Of a stretch of DNA of 51,721 nucleotides, positions 6,176 through 18,334 are shown piece after piece (the first letter of the stretch is position 1; the number at the start of each line of letters is the position of its first letter). Made by a program: the position numbers and the translations under genes. Origin of the DNA: Lachnospiraceae bacterium (GTDB lineage Bacteria > Bacillota > Clostridia > Lachnospirales > Lachnospiraceae); assembly GCA_022794265.1 (NCBI GenBank), contig JAAWEK010000026.1:1-51721 (forward strand). The letters are read 5' to 3'. The notes beneath the pieces were generated by a model. That model worked only from the letters and a program-made list of their open reading frames with translations, ran no database searches and had not been told where the DNA came from.

Positions 6176-7537
6176 ATGGAAGAGAAGAAATATTTAAAGT
6201 GGTATAACAAAGTTGGATACGGTTCCGGTGATATCGCAGGAAATGTAGTTTATGCATTATTATCAGCCTTTGTGATGATTTACTTAACAGATACGGTAGG
6301 CTTAAATTCAGGAATTATAGGCACATTAATAGCAGTTTCAAAGATTTTTGACGGTGTCAGTGATGTTTTCTTTGGTGCATTGATTGACAAGACAAAGTCA
6401 AAGATGGGGAAGGCCAGGCCATGGATGTTATATGGATATTTTGGCTGTGCAGTTTGTTTGGTTGCGATTTTCTGTATTCCGGTTGATATGGGAACAACAG
6501 CTCAGTATGCATGGTTCTTTATTGCATATACATTATTAAATGCCGGTTTTTATACAGCAAACAACATTGCATATTCAGCACTAACAGCACTTATCACAAA
6601 GAATAATCAGGAACGGGTTCAGATGGGTTCCATCCGTTTCATGTTCGCCTTTGGCACAAGTATGTTAATTCAGGCAATTACTGTTGGAGTAGTTGTTCAC
6701 TTCGGTGGTGGAGCCGCTGCCTGGAGAACAGTAGCTATTATTTATGCCATTATTGGTGTTATTTCCAATACAATTTCAGTTATGTCGGTGAAGGAACTAT
6801 CTCCTGAGGAATTAGCGGAAGAACAAAAGGAAAAAGAAGCAGAAGAAAAATATAGTCTCATTGATGCATTTAAACTTCTTATCCACAATAAATATTTCAT
6901 CCTGATTTGTGGAGCATACCTTTTAATGCAGATTTATTCAGCTACTCTTGGTATGGGAATTTATTTTATGAAGTATGTTCTAAAGGATGAGAGTTTATTT
7001 GGTACTTTTGCCTGGGCAGTTAATATTCCTATGATTGTTGGACTTTTGGCTACACCAGTATTGGTTGCAAAATTTAAGGGAATGTATAGGTTGAACCTTG
7101 TCGGATATGCAATAGGTACACTGGGCCGTCTTGGAGTTGTTGCTGCAGGTTATATGGGGAATATTCCGCTTATGCTGGCATTCACGGCACTTGCAGCTCT
7201 TGGAATGAGTCCTCTTCAGGGAGATATGAATGCTCTTATTGCTACAACATCAGAGTATACACGATTGAAAACCGGTAAGAGAGTGGATGGAACAATGTAT
7301 TCCTGCACATCATTTGGAACAAAAGTTGGTGGTGGAATAGGTACAGCAATCGCCGGATGGTTACTTGCAGCAAGTGGATATATCAAGAATGCGCCGGTCC
7401 AGCCGGAATCCTGTATAAGAATGCTTCATATTATGTATTTGTGGCTTCCAATGATTTTCACTTTTTTAATTACAATTGTACTTATTAAATTGAACGTTGA
7501 GAAGGCAAATGCAGATTTGAGAAAAAAACAGGGATAA
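6176..7537 (+). CDS. GPH-family sugar:cation symporter
   Basis: This 453-residue, roughly 12-helix membrane protein belongs to the glycoside-pentoside-hexuronide:cation symporter family (MelB/LacS type). Family marks include the N-terminal KVGYGSGDIAGNVVYAL and the loop GALIDKTKSKMGKARPW between helices 2 and 3. The C-terminal IIA domain found in LacS of lactic acid bacteria is absent. It lies 102 nt after lacZ and 18 nt before galK, so lactose or galactoside uptake is the obvious role; substrate and coupling ion are inferred. GGAGCGG serves as ribosome site. Confidence 0.88.
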   Translation: MEEKKYLKWYNKVGYGSGDIAGNVVYALLSAFVMIYLTDTVGLNSGIIGTLIAVSKIFDGVSDVFFGALIDKTKSKMGKARPWMLYGYFGCAVCLVAIFCIPVDMGTTAQYAWFFIAYTLLNAGFYTANNIAYSALTALITKNNQERVQMGSIRFMFAFGTSMLIQAITVGVVVHFGGGAAAWRTVAIIYAIIGVISNTISVMSVKELSPEELAEEQKEKEAEEKYSLIDAFKLLIHNKYFILICGAYLLMQIYSATLGMGIYFMKYVLKDESLFGTFAWAVNIPMIVGLLATPVLVAKFKGMYRLNLVGYAIGTLGRLGVVAAGYMGNIPLMLAFTALAALGMSPLQGDMNALIATTSEYTRLKTGKRVDGTMYSCTSFGTKVGGGIGTAIAGWLLAASGYIKNAPVQPESCIRMLHIMYLWLPMIFTFLITIVLIKLNVEKANADLRKKQG

Positions 7538-12527: not shown

Positions 12528-12932
12528 ATGGAAGGGCAGGTAGAATCATTGAATATTGAACATATTGCCATGTACGTAAATGATTTAGAAAAAGCAAAGG
12601 ATTTTTTTGTTAAATATTTTAATGCAATCCCAAATGAAAAATATCATAATAGCAGCACAGAGTTTTGTTCATATTTCCTTTCTTTTGATGAAGGTGCAAG
12701 GCTGGAAATAATGCATAAACCTTCTATGTCTGATGATGAAAAACTGTTAGCAAGAACAGGATATATCCATATTGCTTTCCGTTTAGGAAGCAGGAAAGCG
12801 GTGGATAAACTGACAGCAGAATTACGGGCAGACGGTTATGAAGTTGTCAGCGGGCCAAGAACAACGGGAGATGGGTATTATGAAAGCTGTATTATAGGAA
12901 TTGAAGGTAATCAGATTGAAATAACGGTGTAA
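12528..12932 (+). CDS. VOC-superfamily (glyoxalase-like) protein
   Basis: This 134-residue protein has one vicinal-oxygen-chelate fold. Beta-strand segments LNIEHIAMYVNDLEKAKDFF and TGYIHIAFRLGS mark the two beta-alpha-beta-beta-beta halves, and the C-terminus GIEGNQIEIT carries the family's final E. Metal ligands are probably His in NIEHIA, Glu in RLEIM, His in YIHIAF and Glu near the end. Such proteins include lactoylglutathione lyases and fosfomycin- or bleomycin-resistance proteins; the reaction here is unknown. The start is uncertain. The ATG at 12528 lacks a ribosome site, while a TTG at 12549 has GGAAGGGCAGG before it and would give the typical N-terminus. Confidence 0.78.
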   Translation: MEGQVESLNIEHIAMYVNDLEKAKDFFVKYFNAIPNEKYHNSSTEFCSYFLSFDEGARLEIMHKPSMSDDEKLLARTGYIHIAFRLGSRKAVDKLTAELRADGYEVVSGPRTTGDGYYESCIIGIEGNQIEITV

Positions 12933-12947
12933 GAAGAATAAAAAAGC

Positions 12948-12976
12948 TTGACTTTTAGAACTTACAGCTGTAATAT
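12948..12976 (+). promoter_or_regulatory. Promoter of the PBP gene
   Basis: TTGACT (12948-12953) and TAATAT (12971-12976) are exactly 17 nt apart, which gives a leader of about 145 nt. A TACA-N2-TGTA dyad overlaps the -10 box. A second, weaker pair (TTGTCT at 13012, TAATAA at 13034) lies closer to the gene and overlaps the second dyad. Confidence 0.6.
12963..12972. promoter_or_regulatory. BlaI/MecI-like operator dyad 1
   Basis: TACAGCTGTA is a perfect palindrome of the TACA-N2-TGTA type, the half-site pattern known for BlaI/MecI repressors. The wider sequence TTACAGCTGTAATAT overlaps the -10 box of the PBP promoter, an ideal place for repression. No blaI or blaR1 gene is in the window. Confidence 0.5.
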
Positions 12977-13025
12977 TTAAATCAATACATAGAAACTAAA
13001 AATATATTTTTTTGTCTCATAATCC

Positions 13026-13035
13026 TACAAATGTA
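13026..13035. promoter_or_regulatory. BlaI/MecI-like operator dyad 2
   Basis: TACAAATGTA repeats the TACA-N2-TGTA pattern 63 nt after the first dyad, upstream of the PBP start codon. Only the two central bases break the palindrome. Two sites on one promoter region make a chance match less likely. Confidence 0.45.
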
Positions 13036-13127
13036 ATAATTAAAAATGAATGTAAAACTTTGAAATATTAATAGGATTATTAGAAAATAATAACAAAAAA
13101 TAATTTGAAAAATTTCCGGAGGTCAAT

Positions 13128-15257
13128 ATGAAAGGAAAAAACAGGCGAAAACAAAGAAAATTGTTTATATTTCTATGGTTTACCATAGCTTTTGCAGGGA
13201 TTGTTACAATAGGTGCCGTTATGCATCATAAAAAAGACACATTTCGGGATTCTTCCGACAAGATTTCTGTCCGGGTATCCCCAAAAGAATTGTTGATTGA
13301 ATATATGAACCATATCCCGGAACAGGAGTATAAAGAAATGTATGAGATGCTGGATATAGAAGCTTCCGGCAACATCAGTCGGGAGGATTTTATCAAACGG
13401 AATTCGGCAATCTATGAAGGCGTAGAGATGCAAAATATGGTAATCGAAATTCTTGATTACGATGAGCAGGAAAAAAACGTAACATATCAGACTTCATTTG
13501 ATACGGCGGCCGGAAATATTAGTTTTAAAAATAAAGCATATTTCAGAAAAGGAGAAGAAGGATATAAATTGATATGGCAGGATTCCTTAATCTTTCCGGA
13601 ATTTTATTCCACGGATAAAGTAAGGGTTTCGGAAATAAAGGCGAAACGGGGGGAAATACTGGACAGGAACGGGCAGGTTCTGGCGGGAACGGGGCTGGCT
13701 TCCTCCGTTGGAATCGTTCCAGGGAAATTGGAAAACAGGGAAGAAGCCATTGCAAAGATAGCAGAACTGTTGGAACTAAATCCGGAAGCCATTGAAAAGA
13801 AATTATCGGCAAAATGGGTGAAAGATGATTCCTTCGTGCCGGTTCAGACCATTCGGAAAGTGGAGGAAACGGAGCTTATGGCGGCGGAACCGGATGAGGA
13901 AGTGTTAAAAGAAAAGGAGCGGCAGGATAAGCTGCTGGCCATACCTGGGGTAATGTTGTCGGATACCGAAGTGCGGAAATACCCTCTGGGTAAAGCAGCA
14001 TCCCATTTAATCGGATATGTGCAGAATGTTACGGCAGAAGATTTGGAAGAACATGCAGGAGAAGGCTACACGGCGGACAGTGTCATCGGCAGAAGCGGAA
14101 TGGAAGGGTTATTTGAAAAAGAGTTGAAAGGCCGGAACGGATGCAGGATTTATATTGCAGATTCAGATGGTAATGAGAAAAGAGAACTTGCGTGTATCCC
14201 GGTGCACCATGGGCAGGATATACGCCTTACCATAGATGCCGGTCTGCAGGCCGGACTGTATGAACAGTTTCAGGAGGATAAAAGCTGTTCGGCAGCCATG
14301 AATCCATACACCGGCGAAGTACTGGCGCTGGTCAGTACGCCGTCTTATAACAATAATGATTTTATTATGGGATTATCCACTGAGCAATGGAATGCAATGA
14401 ATGAGGATATTGATAAGCCTATGTATAACCGTTTCCGGCAGGTCTGGTGTCCGGGTTCCACTTTTAAACCAATCATAGCAGCAATCGGTCTGGAATCAGG
14501 AACTGTGAATCCTATGGAAGATTACGGGAATGAAGGTCGGAGCTGGCAGAAAGATGCGTCATGGGGTTCCTATTTTGTAACAACCCTTCATGCATATGAG
14601 CCTGTGATTCTGGAAAATGCATTGAAGTATTCGGATAATATTTATTTTGCCAAAGCGGCGCTGAAAATCGGAGCGGAAGAAATGAAAAATTTCTTGCTGA
14701 AAATGGGATTTGATGAAGAACTGCCCTTTGATATTAAGATGGCCCGGTCACAATTTTCAAATACGGAAAACATTGAAACCGAGATACAGCTGGCGGACAG
14801 CGGATACGGACAGGGGCAGATTCTGATAAATCCGCTGCATATGGCATGTATTTATTCGGCCTTTTGCAATGAGGGAAATATAATAAAACCTTATCTGGTT
14901 TCTGACCGGGGAAAATCAGGACAATACTGGATTCCCAATGCTTTTTCTGCCGGAACGGCAGCCATTGTACTGGAAGGCATGAAAAAAGTAGTGAACGATT
15001 CTGATGGTACGGGATATTCGGCTCACCGCCAGGATATTTTACTGGCAGGAAAGACTGGAACGGCAGAGATTAAGGCATCAAAGGAGGATACTTCCGGAAC
15101 GGAACTGGGATGGTTCGCCGTTTTTACGGCTGAGAAAACAGTGCAGCGGCCGATATTGCTTATAAGTATGGTGGAAGATGTAAAAGGACGGGGCGGCAGC
15201 GGTTATGTGATTAAAAAAGATAAAAAGGTTTTGGAACAATGGCTGGGCGGCAATTAG
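13128..15257 (+). CDS. MecA-like class B penicillin-binding protein
   Basis: This 709-residue D,D-transpeptidase cross-links peptidoglycan on the outer face of the membrane. In order it has one N-terminal membrane anchor (about residues 12-30), an NTF2-like MecA_N domain (about 45-160), a PBP dimerisation domain (RGEILDRNGQVLAG near 178) and the transpeptidase. The active-site motifs are Ser444-T-F-K, Ser502-D-N and Lys642-T-G. The architecture matches PBP2a/PBP3-type proteins with low beta-lactam affinity, not the PBP2b/FtsI of the division cluster. The ATG has CCGGAGG 6 nt upstream. It stands alone behind its own promoter with two BlaI-like dyads, so induction by cell-wall stress or beta-lactams is a reasonable inference. 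Low affinity itself cannot be read from sequence. Confidence 0.9.
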   Translation: MKGKNRRKQRKLFIFLWFTIAFAGIVTIGAVMHHKKDTFRDSSDKISVRVSPKELLIEYMNHIPEQEYKEMYEMLDIEASGNISREDFIKRNSAIYEGVEMQNMVIEILDYDEQEKNVTYQTSFDTAAGNISFKNKAYFRKGEEGYKLIWQDSLIFPEFYSTDKVRVSEIKAKRGEILDRNGQVLAGTGLASSVGIVPGKLENREEAIAKIAELLELNPEAIEKKLSAKWVKDDSFVPVQTIRKVEETELMAAEPDEEVLKEKERQDKLLAIPGVMLSDTEVRKYPLGKAASHLIGYVQNVTAEDLEEHAGEGYTADSVIGRSGMEGLFEKELKGRNGCRIYIADSDGNEKRELACIPVHHGQDIRLTIDAGLQAGLYEQFQEDKSCSAAMNPYTGEVLALVSTPSYNNNDFIMGLSTEQWNAMNEDIDKPMYNRFRQVWCPGSTFKPIIAAIGLESGTVNPMEDYGNEGRSWQKDASWGSYFVTTLHAYEPVILENALKYSDNIYFAKAALKIGAEEMKNFLLKMGFDEELPFDIKMARSQFSNTENIETEIQLADSGYGQGQILINPLHMACIYSAFCNEGNIIKPYLVSDRGKSGQYWIPNAFSAGTAAIVLEGMKKVVNDSDGTGYSAHRQDILLAGKTGTAEIKASKEDTSGTELGWFAVFTAEKTVQRPILLISMVEDVKGRGGSGYVIKKDKKVLEQWLGGN

Positions 15258-15389: not shown

Positions 15390-16112
15390 ATGAATCATCA
15401 GTTTATTCAAAGTGTAATGATTGATTGGGACCGGATTGGGCGAAACAGTTATTTAAGAGACATTGAAGCAGTGGAAGGTTTGGAGAAACTGGAATTTAAC
15501 CGTCCGATTACATTTTTTGTGGGCGAAAACGGAAGCGGAAAATCCACCATGCTGGAAGCTATTGCTGTGGCGGCGGGATTTAATCCGGAGGGTGGAACAA
15601 AAAATTACTGTTTTTCAACATATGACTCTCATTCCGAACTCTGTGAAGCCATGAGGATTGTAAAAGGATACCGCAGACCGGACTGTGGTTACTTTTTACG
15701 GGCAGAGAGCTTCTATAATGTAGCCACAAAAGAGGAAGAATATGCCGATTCCCGCCATCCGTCTGCGAAACTTCATGAAAAATCCCATGGGGAAAGTTTT
15801 CTGGCAATTGCACAGAAATATTTAAGGCCAAACGGACTATATCTGCTGGATGAGCCGGAGGCGGCTTTGTCACCCCAGAGACAATTAACACTGCTTATGG
15901 AAATATACGGTTGTGCCGATAGAAACTCGCAATTTATAATAGCTACACATTCACCGATTCTGCTGGGGATACCCGGTGCCGAAATATTATCCTTTGATGA
16001 CGGAAAAATCCATACCTGTGAATACTTGGAGACGGACAGTTATCAAGTGATGGAGATGTATATAAATAATAGAAAAGAATTATTAAAAAAGCTGATTGGA
16101 GTGGAGGAATAA
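15390..16112 (+). CDS. AAA/ABC-type ATPase (COG3910-like)
   Basis: This 240-residue soluble ATPase has a RecF/SMC-like head. The Walker A is GENGSGKST near residue 47, the ABC-like signature region is KSHGESFLAIAQKYL, the Walker B is YLLDEPEAAL, and the switch His lies in IATHSPILL. There is no coiled-coil arm, so it is shorter than RecF or SbcC. Proteins of this kind are often annotated as predicted ATPases and have no settled function. It ends 2 nt before the radical SAM gene, so both are co-transcribed. GGAGG precedes the ATG. The pairing suggests an ATP-dependent partner of the radical SAM enzyme, but that is inference. Confidence 0.8.
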   Translation: MNHQFIQSVMIDWDRIGRNSYLRDIEAVEGLEKLEFNRPITFFVGENGSGKSTMLEAIAVAAGFNPEGGTKNYCFSTYDSHSELCEAMRIVKGYRRPDCGYFLRAESFYNVATKEEEYADSRHPSAKLHEKSHGESFLAIAQKYLRPNGLYLLDEPEAALSPQRQLTLLMEIYGCADRNSQFIIATHSPILLGIPGAEILSFDDGKIHTCEYLETDSYQVMEMYINNRKELLKKLIGVEE

Positions 16113-16114
16113 AA

Positions 16115-16978
16115 GTGCATTTTGTAAATGCAAAAGGAATTTTATCGCCGCAGAACGGTATGAATCTATACAGAGGCTGTACTCACGGTTGTATTTACTG
16201 TGACAGCAGAAGCAGATGTTATGGTTTTAACCATGAGTTTGAAGATATAGAAGTCAAACAAAATGCATCGGAACTATTGGAACAGGCTCTTCGTTCAAAG
16301 AGAAAAAAATGCATGATTGGAACAGGCTCCATGTGTGACCCATATATGCAATGTGAAGAATCCCTGGGGTTGACCAGAAAATGTCTGGAAATCATAGAGC
16401 GCTATGAATTTGGTGTAGCGGTTCAGACAAAATCAGACAGAATTCTTCGGGATCTGGACATATTGAAACGGATTAATGAAAAGGGAAAGTGTGTGGTTCA
16501 GATGACACTGACTACATATGACGATAAATTAAGCAAAATACTGGAGCCAAATGTATGCGCTACAGGAGAGCGGGTGAAGGCTCTGCAGACTTTTCGTGAT
16601 AACGGGATTCCTACCATAGTCTGGCTGTCCCCGATTCTGCCGTTCATTAATGATACAAGAGAAAATATAGAAGGAATTTTAGAGGATTGTATCAGGGCAA
16701 AAGTGTATGGAATCATCTGTTTTGGCATGGGGCTGACTCTGCGTGAAGGAAACAGGGAGTATTTTTACGCCATGCTGGATAAAAAATTTCCGGGATTGAA
16801 AGAAAAGTATCAGAAAAGATATGGGAAGGCTTATCATATTTCCAGTGACAAAAATCAGGAACTGATGAGACTATTTGAAGAAACATGCAGAAAACATGAT
16901 ATCGTATGGGATGTGGATGAATGTTTTCGGTATTTGCAGGATTTTCCAGAACAGTACAGACAAATGACATTGTTTTAG
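16115..16978 (+). CDS. Radical SAM protein, SPL-like family
   Basis: This 287-residue protein has the radical SAM cluster motif C-x3-C-x2-C in RGCTHGCIYCDS, near residue 22, and belongs to the group of COG1533 (spore photoproduct lyase-like, Rv2578c). The motif IGTGSMCDPYMQCEE and the later IVWLSPILPFIND are typical for that group. It should bind a 4Fe-4S cluster and S-adenosylmethionine. Unlike true spore photoproduct lyase (about 340 residues) it lacks the long N-terminal part. The start is a GTG with GGAGG 8 nt upstream, 2 nt after the ATPase gene. The substrate is unknown; repair of nucleic acid is possible but not shown. Confidence 0.85.
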   Translation: MHFVNAKGILSPQNGMNLYRGCTHGCIYCDSRSRCYGFNHEFEDIEVKQNASELLEQALRSKRKKCMIGTGSMCDPYMQCEESLGLTRKCLEIIERYEFGVAVQTKSDRILRDLDILKRINEKGKCVVQMTLTTYDDKLSKILEPNVCATGERVKALQTFRDNGIPTIVWLSPILPFINDTRENIEGILEDCIRAKVYGIICFGMGLTLREGNREYFYAMLDKKFPGLKEKYQKRYGKAYHISSDKNQELMRLFEETCRKHDIVWDVDECFRYLQDFPEQYRQMTLF

Positions 16979-17094: not shown

Positions 17095-17155
17095 ATAATG
17101 TATAGTAAGTGAAAAGACATGGAAGTTTATATTTTTTATCAAAGGAGTGATGAAT

Positions 17156-18334
17156 ATGAGTACAAATTTTAGTTCAAATCTATTCCAGAGTTTTTCATTC
17201 AACAACGAAAGTCAGAAATTTTTTTCAGATTATGCCAGCATTAAAAACGGCAGTTACGCCAGACTTTTGAAGGCTTATTATGGCAGAGGATATGATTCGT
17301 CTACGTCAGCGTCCGGCAGCACGAGAAGCCGTTCCAGTAATGTTCTTGAGAAACTTTTGGAAGAGCGGAGAAATCCAAAGGTTTCAGAAGAAGTACAGGA
17401 AGCAAATGCAAATCTTACAAGCGGGATTTCAAGTCTGAGAGGTTCTGTATCCACGTTACAGAATGAAAAGACCTATACGGACACGGAAAAGGGTCAGACG
17501 GCGGCAGAAAAGGTGGTTTCTGCTGTGAAAGATTATGTTAAGCAGTATAATAATGTTGTGAGTAACGCAAAACATTCCACATTGTCAGCAAAGACATCAC
17601 ATGTGGCAGCTATGATGCGCAGTACTGCTGCAAATGCTGATAAGCTTTCGGAAATGGGAATTACAATCAATAAAAACGGAACCCTTCAGATGAATGAAAA
17701 TAAGCTGAAGGCAACAGATATCTCAAAGGTACAGGAACTGTTTTCAGCCAAAGATATCACAAGCTATGGTTCTACGGTTATGTCTCGTCTTCAGTTTGCA
17801 GGTTCTGCAACTGGTACAAATAAGACGGATAGTGAGAGCACAAATAAAACGCCGGGTTCTGCGGCTGCTTCCCTTAAGGCAGACAGCGAATTGCTTGCAT
17901 CTGGTAAATTATTTGAGATGATAAAGGATAAGGATGGCAATGAGACATACGATATTGACAAAATCTTTTCCACGACAAAAAGTTTTGTAAGCAATTACAA
18001 TGATATGTTAGATGCAGCCAAATCCAGTTCGAATTCCGGCGTATCAGCAAATCTGTCCAGAATCAGGGAAAAGACGGCGCAAAATGCAGAGGCGCTTAAA
18101 CAGTTTGGTATCAGTGTGGACAGAGATGGCAAAATGAAGATTGATGAAGAGACATTTAAAAAATCAGATATGTCCAAGGTACAGAAATTTTTCAAAGACT
18201 ATGGTGCTTCTATTGCCAGCAGTGCATCACTTGTAAATTATTATATGACTACACAGGCGAATGCTGCCAGTGGTTATACGGCAGACGGCACATATAATGT
18301 GCAGGGAAGTGTCCGCTATGCGGATTCATTTTAA
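17156..18334 (+). CDS. FliD-like protein with a duplicated C-terminal domain
   Basis: This 392-residue protein resembles the C-terminal part of the flagellar cap FliD (HAP2) and has no signal peptide. Two related blocks are seen, about residues 115-205 and 265-355. Each begins with a helix (VVSAVKDYVKQYNNVVSNAK; TTKSFVSNYNDMLDAAKSSS). Each then has an M/F-GI-x-I/V-x-K/R-NG/DG turn (SEMGITINKNGTLQ; KQFGISVDRDGKMK) and closes with a K-x-x-D-x-SKVQ-x-x-F segment. FliD proteins are 450-650 residues and hold one such region. The N-terminus is Ser/Asn-rich and low in Cys. The ATG at 17156 has AAAGGAG 8 nt upstream; earlier GTG/ATG codons overlap that site. It stands alone, with a SigD-like promoter before it and a terminator after it. 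Flagellar relation is inferred. Confidence 0.6.
   Translation: MSTNFSSNLFQSFSFNNESQKFFSDYASIKNGSYARLLKAYYGRGYDSSTSASGSTRSRSSNVLEKLLEERRNPKVSEEVQEANANLTSGISSLRGSVSTLQNEKTYTDTEKGQTAAEKVVSAVKDYVKQYNNVVSNAKHSTLSAKTSHVAAMMRSTAANADKLSEMGITINKNGTLQMNENKLKATDISKVQELFSAKDITSYGSTVMSRLQFAGSATGTNKTDSESTNKTPGSAAASLKADSELLASGKLFEMIKDKDGNETYDIDKIFSTTKSFVSNYNDMLDAAKSSSNSGVSANLSRIREKTAQNAEALKQFGISVDRDGKMKIDEETFKKSDMSKVQKFFKDYGASIASSASLVNYYMTTQANAASGYTADGTYNVQGSVRYADSF

Follow-up and report, generated by a model that had tools for sequence, protein, structure and literature searches.

Candidate BlaI operators at a class B3 penicillin-binding protein gene of a Lachnospiraceae bacterium with an unlinked blaI–blaR1 pair

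Two dyads upstream of a penicillin-binding protein (PBP) gene in a Lachnospiraceae bacterium (GenBank assembly GCA_022794265.1) are very probably operators of the only BlaI repressor encoded in its genome, acting within a blaI–blaR1 switch that is not linked to the PBP gene and would allow beta-lactams to derepress at least three transcription units. The dyads are located in a DNA stretch of 51,721 nucleotides (contig JAAWEK010000026.1; hereafter, the window), at a promoter whose geometry is conserved in related loci; the genome carries a single BlaI/BlaR1 pair, and sites of the same type precede other transcription units. A trans-regulated beta-lactam response had been suggested in an earlier note on the window, and this suggestion is supported by sequence footprinting and co-occurrence, with binding and induction as its predicted steps.

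The PBP gene and its promoter region

The PBP gene (positions 13,128–15,257, plus strand) is preceded by a GGAGG ribosome-binding site (13,118–13,122, plus strand), read directly from the sequence, and encodes a protein of 709 amino acids in which the MecA_N domain and PBP motifs noted previously were confirmed: the MecA_N, PBP_dimer and Transpeptidase domains place it in class B3 (MecA/PBP5-type), and the STFK, SDN and KTG motifs are present. By sequence, the nearest solved structure is 7bn9, 'Penicillin-binding protein 3' (460 bits), followed by PBP2a and PBP5; solved PBP5/PBP4 chains scored about 382 bits. The best NCBIfam match is the enterococcal PBP4(5) family (NF051842, 576.9 bits over residues 51–704, below the cut-off of 700), and the score with MecA (PBP2a; NF000237) was 426.7 bits, below the cut-off of 750. 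Since neither cut-off was reached, a low beta-lactam affinity of this protein is presumed rather than assigned. Further along the window, a radical SAM gene (16,115–16,978) is followed by a gene (17,147–18,334) whose 395-aa product partially matches FliD_C.

The PBP gene is separated by a 195-bp gap from a glyoxalase-family gene (12,528–12,932). The promoter scan and a spacing conserved in related loci identified the −35 hexamer TTGACT (12,948–12,953, plus strand) and, 17 bp after it, the −10 hexamer TAATAT (12,971–12,976, plus strand); because the scan of this region revealed five promoter-like patterns (mean of 1.9 in shuffled sequences), the choice of this promoter rests on its conservation. 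Both dyads are present at the positions reported earlier. The core of the first, TACAGCTGTA (12,963–12,972), overlaps the −10 hexamer, as had been claimed, and the complete 22-bp operator 1 (12,957–12,978, plus strand) spans the spacer and the −10. The core of the second, TACAAATGTA (13,026–13,035), likewise lies downstream of the −10 as described, and the centre of operator 2 (13,020–13,041, plus strand) falls at about +48 of the transcript, if transcription starts where the −10 hexamer predicts.

The pattern TACA-N2-TGTA had been taken as a mark of BlaI/MecI repressors; this holds for the extended 22-bp operator, whereas the 10-bp core is weak evidence by itself and, according to excerpts of PMC7253601, is shared with CopY. 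The window contains three copies of the core TACANNTGTA where 0.75 would be expected, and 3 of 100 shuffled sequences reach three; in the 2.88-Mb genome there are 85 copies, compared with 57 of the reversed pattern. Therefore, conservation was looked for, and 51 exact-core sites of related loci, excluding the window, served to train a 22-bp matrix (AAATMTTACA-NN-TGTAAKATTT). Operators 1 and 2 scored 19.2 and 24.8 bits, respectively, and were the only sites of at least 12 bits in the window, while 200 dinucleotide shuffles of the window contained 0.1 such sites on average and one at most, none of them reaching 19.2 bits. This result is decisive: the extended operator occurs in the window far beyond chance expectation. 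The third core of the window (7471–7480), located inside an open reading frame (6176–7537), scored below 10 bits and is probably a chance occurrence.

The blaI–blaR1 pair and other sites in the genome

Neither blaI nor blaR1 adjoins the PBP gene, as the earlier note had pointed out, and neither is present in the window. The genome search proposed there for their homologues revealed exactly one match to BlaI (PF03965; C7:6044–6385, minus strand, 5.1e-35) and one to BlaR1 (M56; C7:5089–5991, minus strand, 9.6e-55), which are neighbours on contig C7. The absence of any BlaI/MecI-type gene, named in the earlier note as grounds for refutation, is thereby ruled out. The BlaR1 protein scores 670.6 bits with the NCBIfam equivalog NF000326, above the cut-off of 400, contains the HELQH, STYK and KTG motifs and, with its class D-like penicillin-binding domain, is the only candidate sensor.

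The search for further dyads, also proposed previously, succeeded at blaI itself, where TTACATTTGTAA is located upstream (C7:6425), but on the genome scale the core counts are weak evidence (85 versus 57 for the reversed control, as given above). Read on the blaI strand, TTGACA-17-TATAAT is followed by TTACAAATGTAA, with a score of 9.2 bits. As regards membership in a BlaI/MecI regulon, the genome combines a TACA-N2-TGTA operator at the PBP promoter, a repressor whose own gene has a dyad, and a BlaR1/MecR1 sensor-protease beside this repressor.

Convergent to blaI–blaR1 on C7 is a unit (L007:287–4159) consisting of a gene for a PBP2-like protein of 963 amino acids and then a gene for a class D beta-lactamase-like lipoprotein of 323 amino acids, whose best match, blaCDD, scored 226.3 bits, below the cut-off of 600. 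Two variant operators (23.3 and 22.3 bits) are located upstream, 52 bp apart; each has one core mismatch, and the first again lies 15 nt after the start of a TTGAC. The combined pattern TTGAC-N9-TTACNNNTGTAAT was found without mismatches at only two places genome-wide, in the window and at this PBP2-like unit, both of which precede PBP genes. With up to two mismatches the promoter-plus-operator pattern was found at six additional places, eight in all, fewer than the 18 of the reversed control, so these mismatched places carry no meaning. The operators at the window PBP gene, the PBP2-like unit and blaI lead us to propose that the BlaI regulon comprises at least three units.

With up to three mismatches allowed, the 22-bp pattern was matched 15 times in the genome, counting both strands, and its reversed control six times. 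Five other sites, located at C7:85216 (21.5 bits), C19:146358 (14.8), C19:5025 (14.1), C16:205123 (13.3) and C6:58779 (12.0), have no known link to beta-lactams. The first of them (L089:1507) lies about 30 bp before a predicted gene for a 226-aa protein and, by eye, has no TTGAC 15 nt upstream; it may be a further regulon member. The C6:58779 site is inside a predicted open reading frame. On contig C10, two TACANNTGTA cores (L008:3144 and L008:3173; 11.2 and 3.5 bits) are located 29 bp apart between a gene for a 290-aa protein and one for a 493-aa glycosidase-like lipoprotein, and this pair is thus attributed to a different regulator or to chance. Matrix scoring covered 27 cores, taken from 50 listed of the 85, a coverage at which a weak regulon member could be missed; 21 of 26 exact cores in the scanned stretches scored below 5 bits.

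Conservation and co-occurrence in related genomes

A scan of genome contigs yielded 80 related loci, named ones including Roseburia, Blautia, Coprococcus and Anaerocolumna. After L133 and L168, duplicates of G013 and G025, were dropped, 78 loci were counted; two of the 51 matrix training sites lie in L133. The counts are uncorrected for relatedness (L100/L101 and L152/L154/L156 look mutually close and were kept), the training sites come from these same loci, and the gene start in L115 is probably misassigned.

At matrix thresholds of 10–14 bits, operators were found within 400 bp upstream of the PBP gene in 61 of the 78 loci, with 105 sites in 30.6 kb of upstream sequence versus 44–50 sites in 480 kb of downstream flank, where some of them sit at blaI or DUF6070 genes. 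One operator was found in 27 loci, two in 24 and three in 10, the remaining 17 having none in these 400 bp. The distance from the start of TTGA[CT] to the core is exactly 15 nt in 55 of the 61 operator-bearing loci, as in the window, and 14 nt in three others; three have no such element. Among 59 promoter-placed operators, 43 have TAATAT at the −10 position. The first spacings between paired operators (63, 72 and 53 bp) seemed to fit whole helical turns, but such phasing was rejected on the basis of 42 spacings below 130 bp (Rayleigh R 0.09–0.20, p 0.2–0.7, periods 10.0–11.0).

The regulatory genes are often located nearby in these relatives: blaI and/or blaR1 were found in the available flank, within roughly 11 kb of the PBP gene, in 36 of the 78 loci, and the PBP–operator arrangement is therefore not peculiar to the window genome. 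They flank the PBP gene in 34 of the 61 operator-bearing loci versus 2 of the 17 others, which have blaR1 or blaI–blaR1 (Fisher 0.002, uncorrected for relatedness). Flank lengths differ and many contigs end near the PBP gene, so that absence of blaI or DUF6070 from a flank does not mean absence from the genome. The divergent orientation of blaI and the PBP gene known from the mec divergon is seen in L120 and L165. The class B3 PBP gene of L167 (Anaerocolumna) is directly followed by a PBP2-like gene with 50% identity to its counterpart on C7.

In relatives, the PBP gene is often followed by one to three copies of a DUF6070 (PF19546) gene and then by convergent blaR1–blaI. Of the 61 operator-bearing loci, 33 have a co-directional DUF6070 gene no more than 7 kb downstream, as opposed to none of the 17 others (Fisher 3e-5, with no correction for relatedness or for contig truncation). 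The DUF6070 match overlaps the 3' end of the PBP frame by 55–61 nt in 20 of the 33, including L105 (Roseburia inulinivorans DSM 16841), L099, L117 and L152, which suggests translational coupling. A Roseburia metagenome-assembled genome contains a class B3 PBP and DUF6070 in one frame of 1074 amino acids (L146:7791–11015), in which the DUF6070 part lacks the first 15 profile positions; this joint frame may have arisen by natural fusion or by an error of assembly.

Among the 60 genomes sampled from the family, DUF6070 was detected in eight, namely in five of the ten with a PBP orthologue and three of the 50 without one; it was not found in the genome studied here. Operators precede DUF6070 genes located apart from an intact PBP gene in L189 (G001), L190 (G057), L193 and L197 (both G015), and L196 (G046). 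None were found at L188 and L199, the following genes of the G046 DUF6070 cluster, or at L192 (G032) and L194 (G016), and L198 (G016), which begins at a contig edge, was left out of this judgement. Between DUF6070 genes of G046, a short fragment (C1:5404818–5405045) that is 57% identical to the PBP and interrupted by stop codons is apparently a decayed second PBP copy. The predicted DUF6070 structure is confident and has no convincing solved relative, and the family is named in no paper of the literature searched. DUF6070 genes stand behind the same operators, appear fused to the PBP once, and can carry BlaI-type operators of their own when located elsewhere. With confidence and doubt about evenly balanced, one could hypothesise that the BlaI-controlled class B3 PBP of Lachnospiraceae is part of a wider beta-lactam-response cassette with DUF6070 proteins as dedicated extracytoplasmic partners of the PBP, and that the window species has a reduced version in which DUF6070 is missing and the PBP gene has moved away from its regulators.

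Ten of the 60 family genomes, including the one studied here, contain a near full-length PBP orthologue (608–1610 bits, 46–100% identity). Of the nine others, G013, G015, G046 and G051 have exact dyads upstream of this gene; G025, the nearest relative in the sample (75%), has four dyads with one mismatch only, three of which score 19.5–23.7 bits; and G028, G032, G033 and G038 have no dyads there. Operators at the PBP gene are found in all six genomes (G000, G013, G015, G025, G046 and G051) with a BlaI at least 54% identical to that of the genome studied here, a neighbouring BlaR1 and a site of at least 9 bits at blaI, and in none of the four orthologue-bearing genomes without such a BlaI (Fisher 0.005, with the 54% line drawn after seeing the data). 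The best of these four, G028, encodes a BlaI with 45% identity next to a BlaR1-like gene, with no site at blaI. Within the genus, no PBP match at E 1e-100 was found in any of eight sister species, PF03965 has no match in seven of them, and the eighth, G064, has a match at 1.2e-19; two of these genomes are less than 90% complete. Taken together, the co-occurrence at the levels of genomes and genus indicates that the PBP gene and the switch come and go together, even though they are unlinked here.

Recent spread of the PBP gene on plasmids is unsupported, all 499 matching plasmid records showing less than 60% identity (39.7% for the best). An empty site was also sought in the sister species; a relative of the neighbouring AAA-ATPase gene (15,390–16,112) was found at E 1e-40 in only one of the eight genomes (62%), among other genes, so that no insertion point could be demonstrated.

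Proposed mechanism, alternatives and significance

In the proposed mechanism, a BlaI dimer bound to operator 1 would cover the spacer and the −10 hexamer of the PBP promoter, blocking RNA polymerase, and operator 2, located 3' of the inferred start, would strengthen repression. A beta-lactam would acylate the sensor domain of BlaR1, whose zinc-protease domain would then inactivate BlaI, leading to joint derepression of the class B3 PBP, the PBP2-like PBP with the class D-like lipoprotein, and blaI–blaR1 itself. Like PBP2a, the class B3 PBP would presumably keep cell-wall cross-linking going while the ordinary PBPs are inhibited, and beta-lactam resistance might result.

It is also conceivable, although rather unlikely, and in part already covered by our confidence in the main explanation, that BlaI binds the dyads and responds mainly to endogenous cell-wall damage or growth state, the PBP serving as a back-up synthase. 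According to extracts of PMC3305447, a peptidoglycan fragment has been proposed as a coactivator of BlaI/MecI release in Bacillus licheniformis. Moreover, Blautia producta DSM 2950 is described, in the portion of PMC8146736 consulted, as carrying blaI and blaR1 and as not resistant to beta-lactams such as ampicillin, so the switch need not give resistance. However, the only candidate sensor has a penicillin-binding domain of class D type, and operators of this kind also precede a gene for a class D beta-lactamase-like protein, which argues for beta-lactams as the signal.

Control by a CopY/TcrY-type copper repressor with the same TACANNTGTA core, as is reported in part of PMC7253601 to be common to CopY and BlaI/MecI, is very improbable. 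The BlaI of this genome does score 96.4 bits with TIGR02698 (CopY_TcrY), but this sole PF03965 match misses the cut-off of 121.95 and sits beside BlaR1, and neither window site, compared by eye, fits the full 16-base CopY consensus of the same excerpts. The copper motif CXC is absent from this BlaI, since its sequence has no cysteine. That the dyads are chance palindromes of an AT-rich intergenic gap, as the core counts against the reversed control and the low scores of most scanned cores might suggest, is hardly credible given operator scores not matched in 200 shuffles, operators in 61 of 78 loci, and the same geometry in 55 of these 61.

The preferred explanation, regulation by the unlinked BlaI–BlaR1 pair, follows known systems. 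Repression by a BlaI dimer and its inactivation after BlaR1 acylation are established in Staphylococcus and Bacillus according to portions of PMC9834060 and PMC3305447, and in Staphylococcus BlaR1 activation is described as lowering BlaI and so releasing both mecA and blaZ (PMC9834060, in extract). With the staphylococcal mecA–mecR1–mecI and blaZ–blaR1–blaI systems, the Lachnospiraceae bacterium shares a PBP or beta-lactamase target, a BlaI-type operator at the promoter, a BlaR1-type sensor-protease and a repressor. Unlike in the mec divergon, where the PBP gene is beside and divergent from the regulators, the window PBP gene (contig C1) and blaI–blaR1 are on different contigs, and the PBP gene is 13 kb away from the closer end of C1. 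Several BlaI operators at target and regulator genes are likewise known from blaP–blaI–blaR1 of B. licheniformis (OP1–OP3; PMC3305447, in extract), while the targets here, two PBPs and a class D-like protein, are distributed over separate transcription units. The BlaI regulons of C. thermocellum, as far as excerpts of PMC8457756 describe them, similarly comprise few operons with paired binding sites; their half-sites differ (GTCTAT/GACTAT), and these excerpts mention no class B3 PBP among the targets. Enterococcal PBP4(5)/PBP5 is also of class B3 and gives the best NCBIfam match, but the window protein is below the equivalog cut-off and its gene has BlaI-type operators. Both the mechanism and control in trans are therefore of a known kind, as described for Staphylococcus, Bacillus and C. 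thermocellum in the portions of these sources consulted.

Searches of the open-licence literature brought up no account of a class B3 PBP under BlaI control in Lachnospiraceae. The present data place a probably inducible, staphylococcus-style alternative PBP, together with its BlaI–BlaR1 switch, in ordinary gut members of this family, and offer a possible and testable explanation of how such commensals might survive courses of beta-lactams. The operator motif is ready to be used for finding more members of this response, DUF6070 first.
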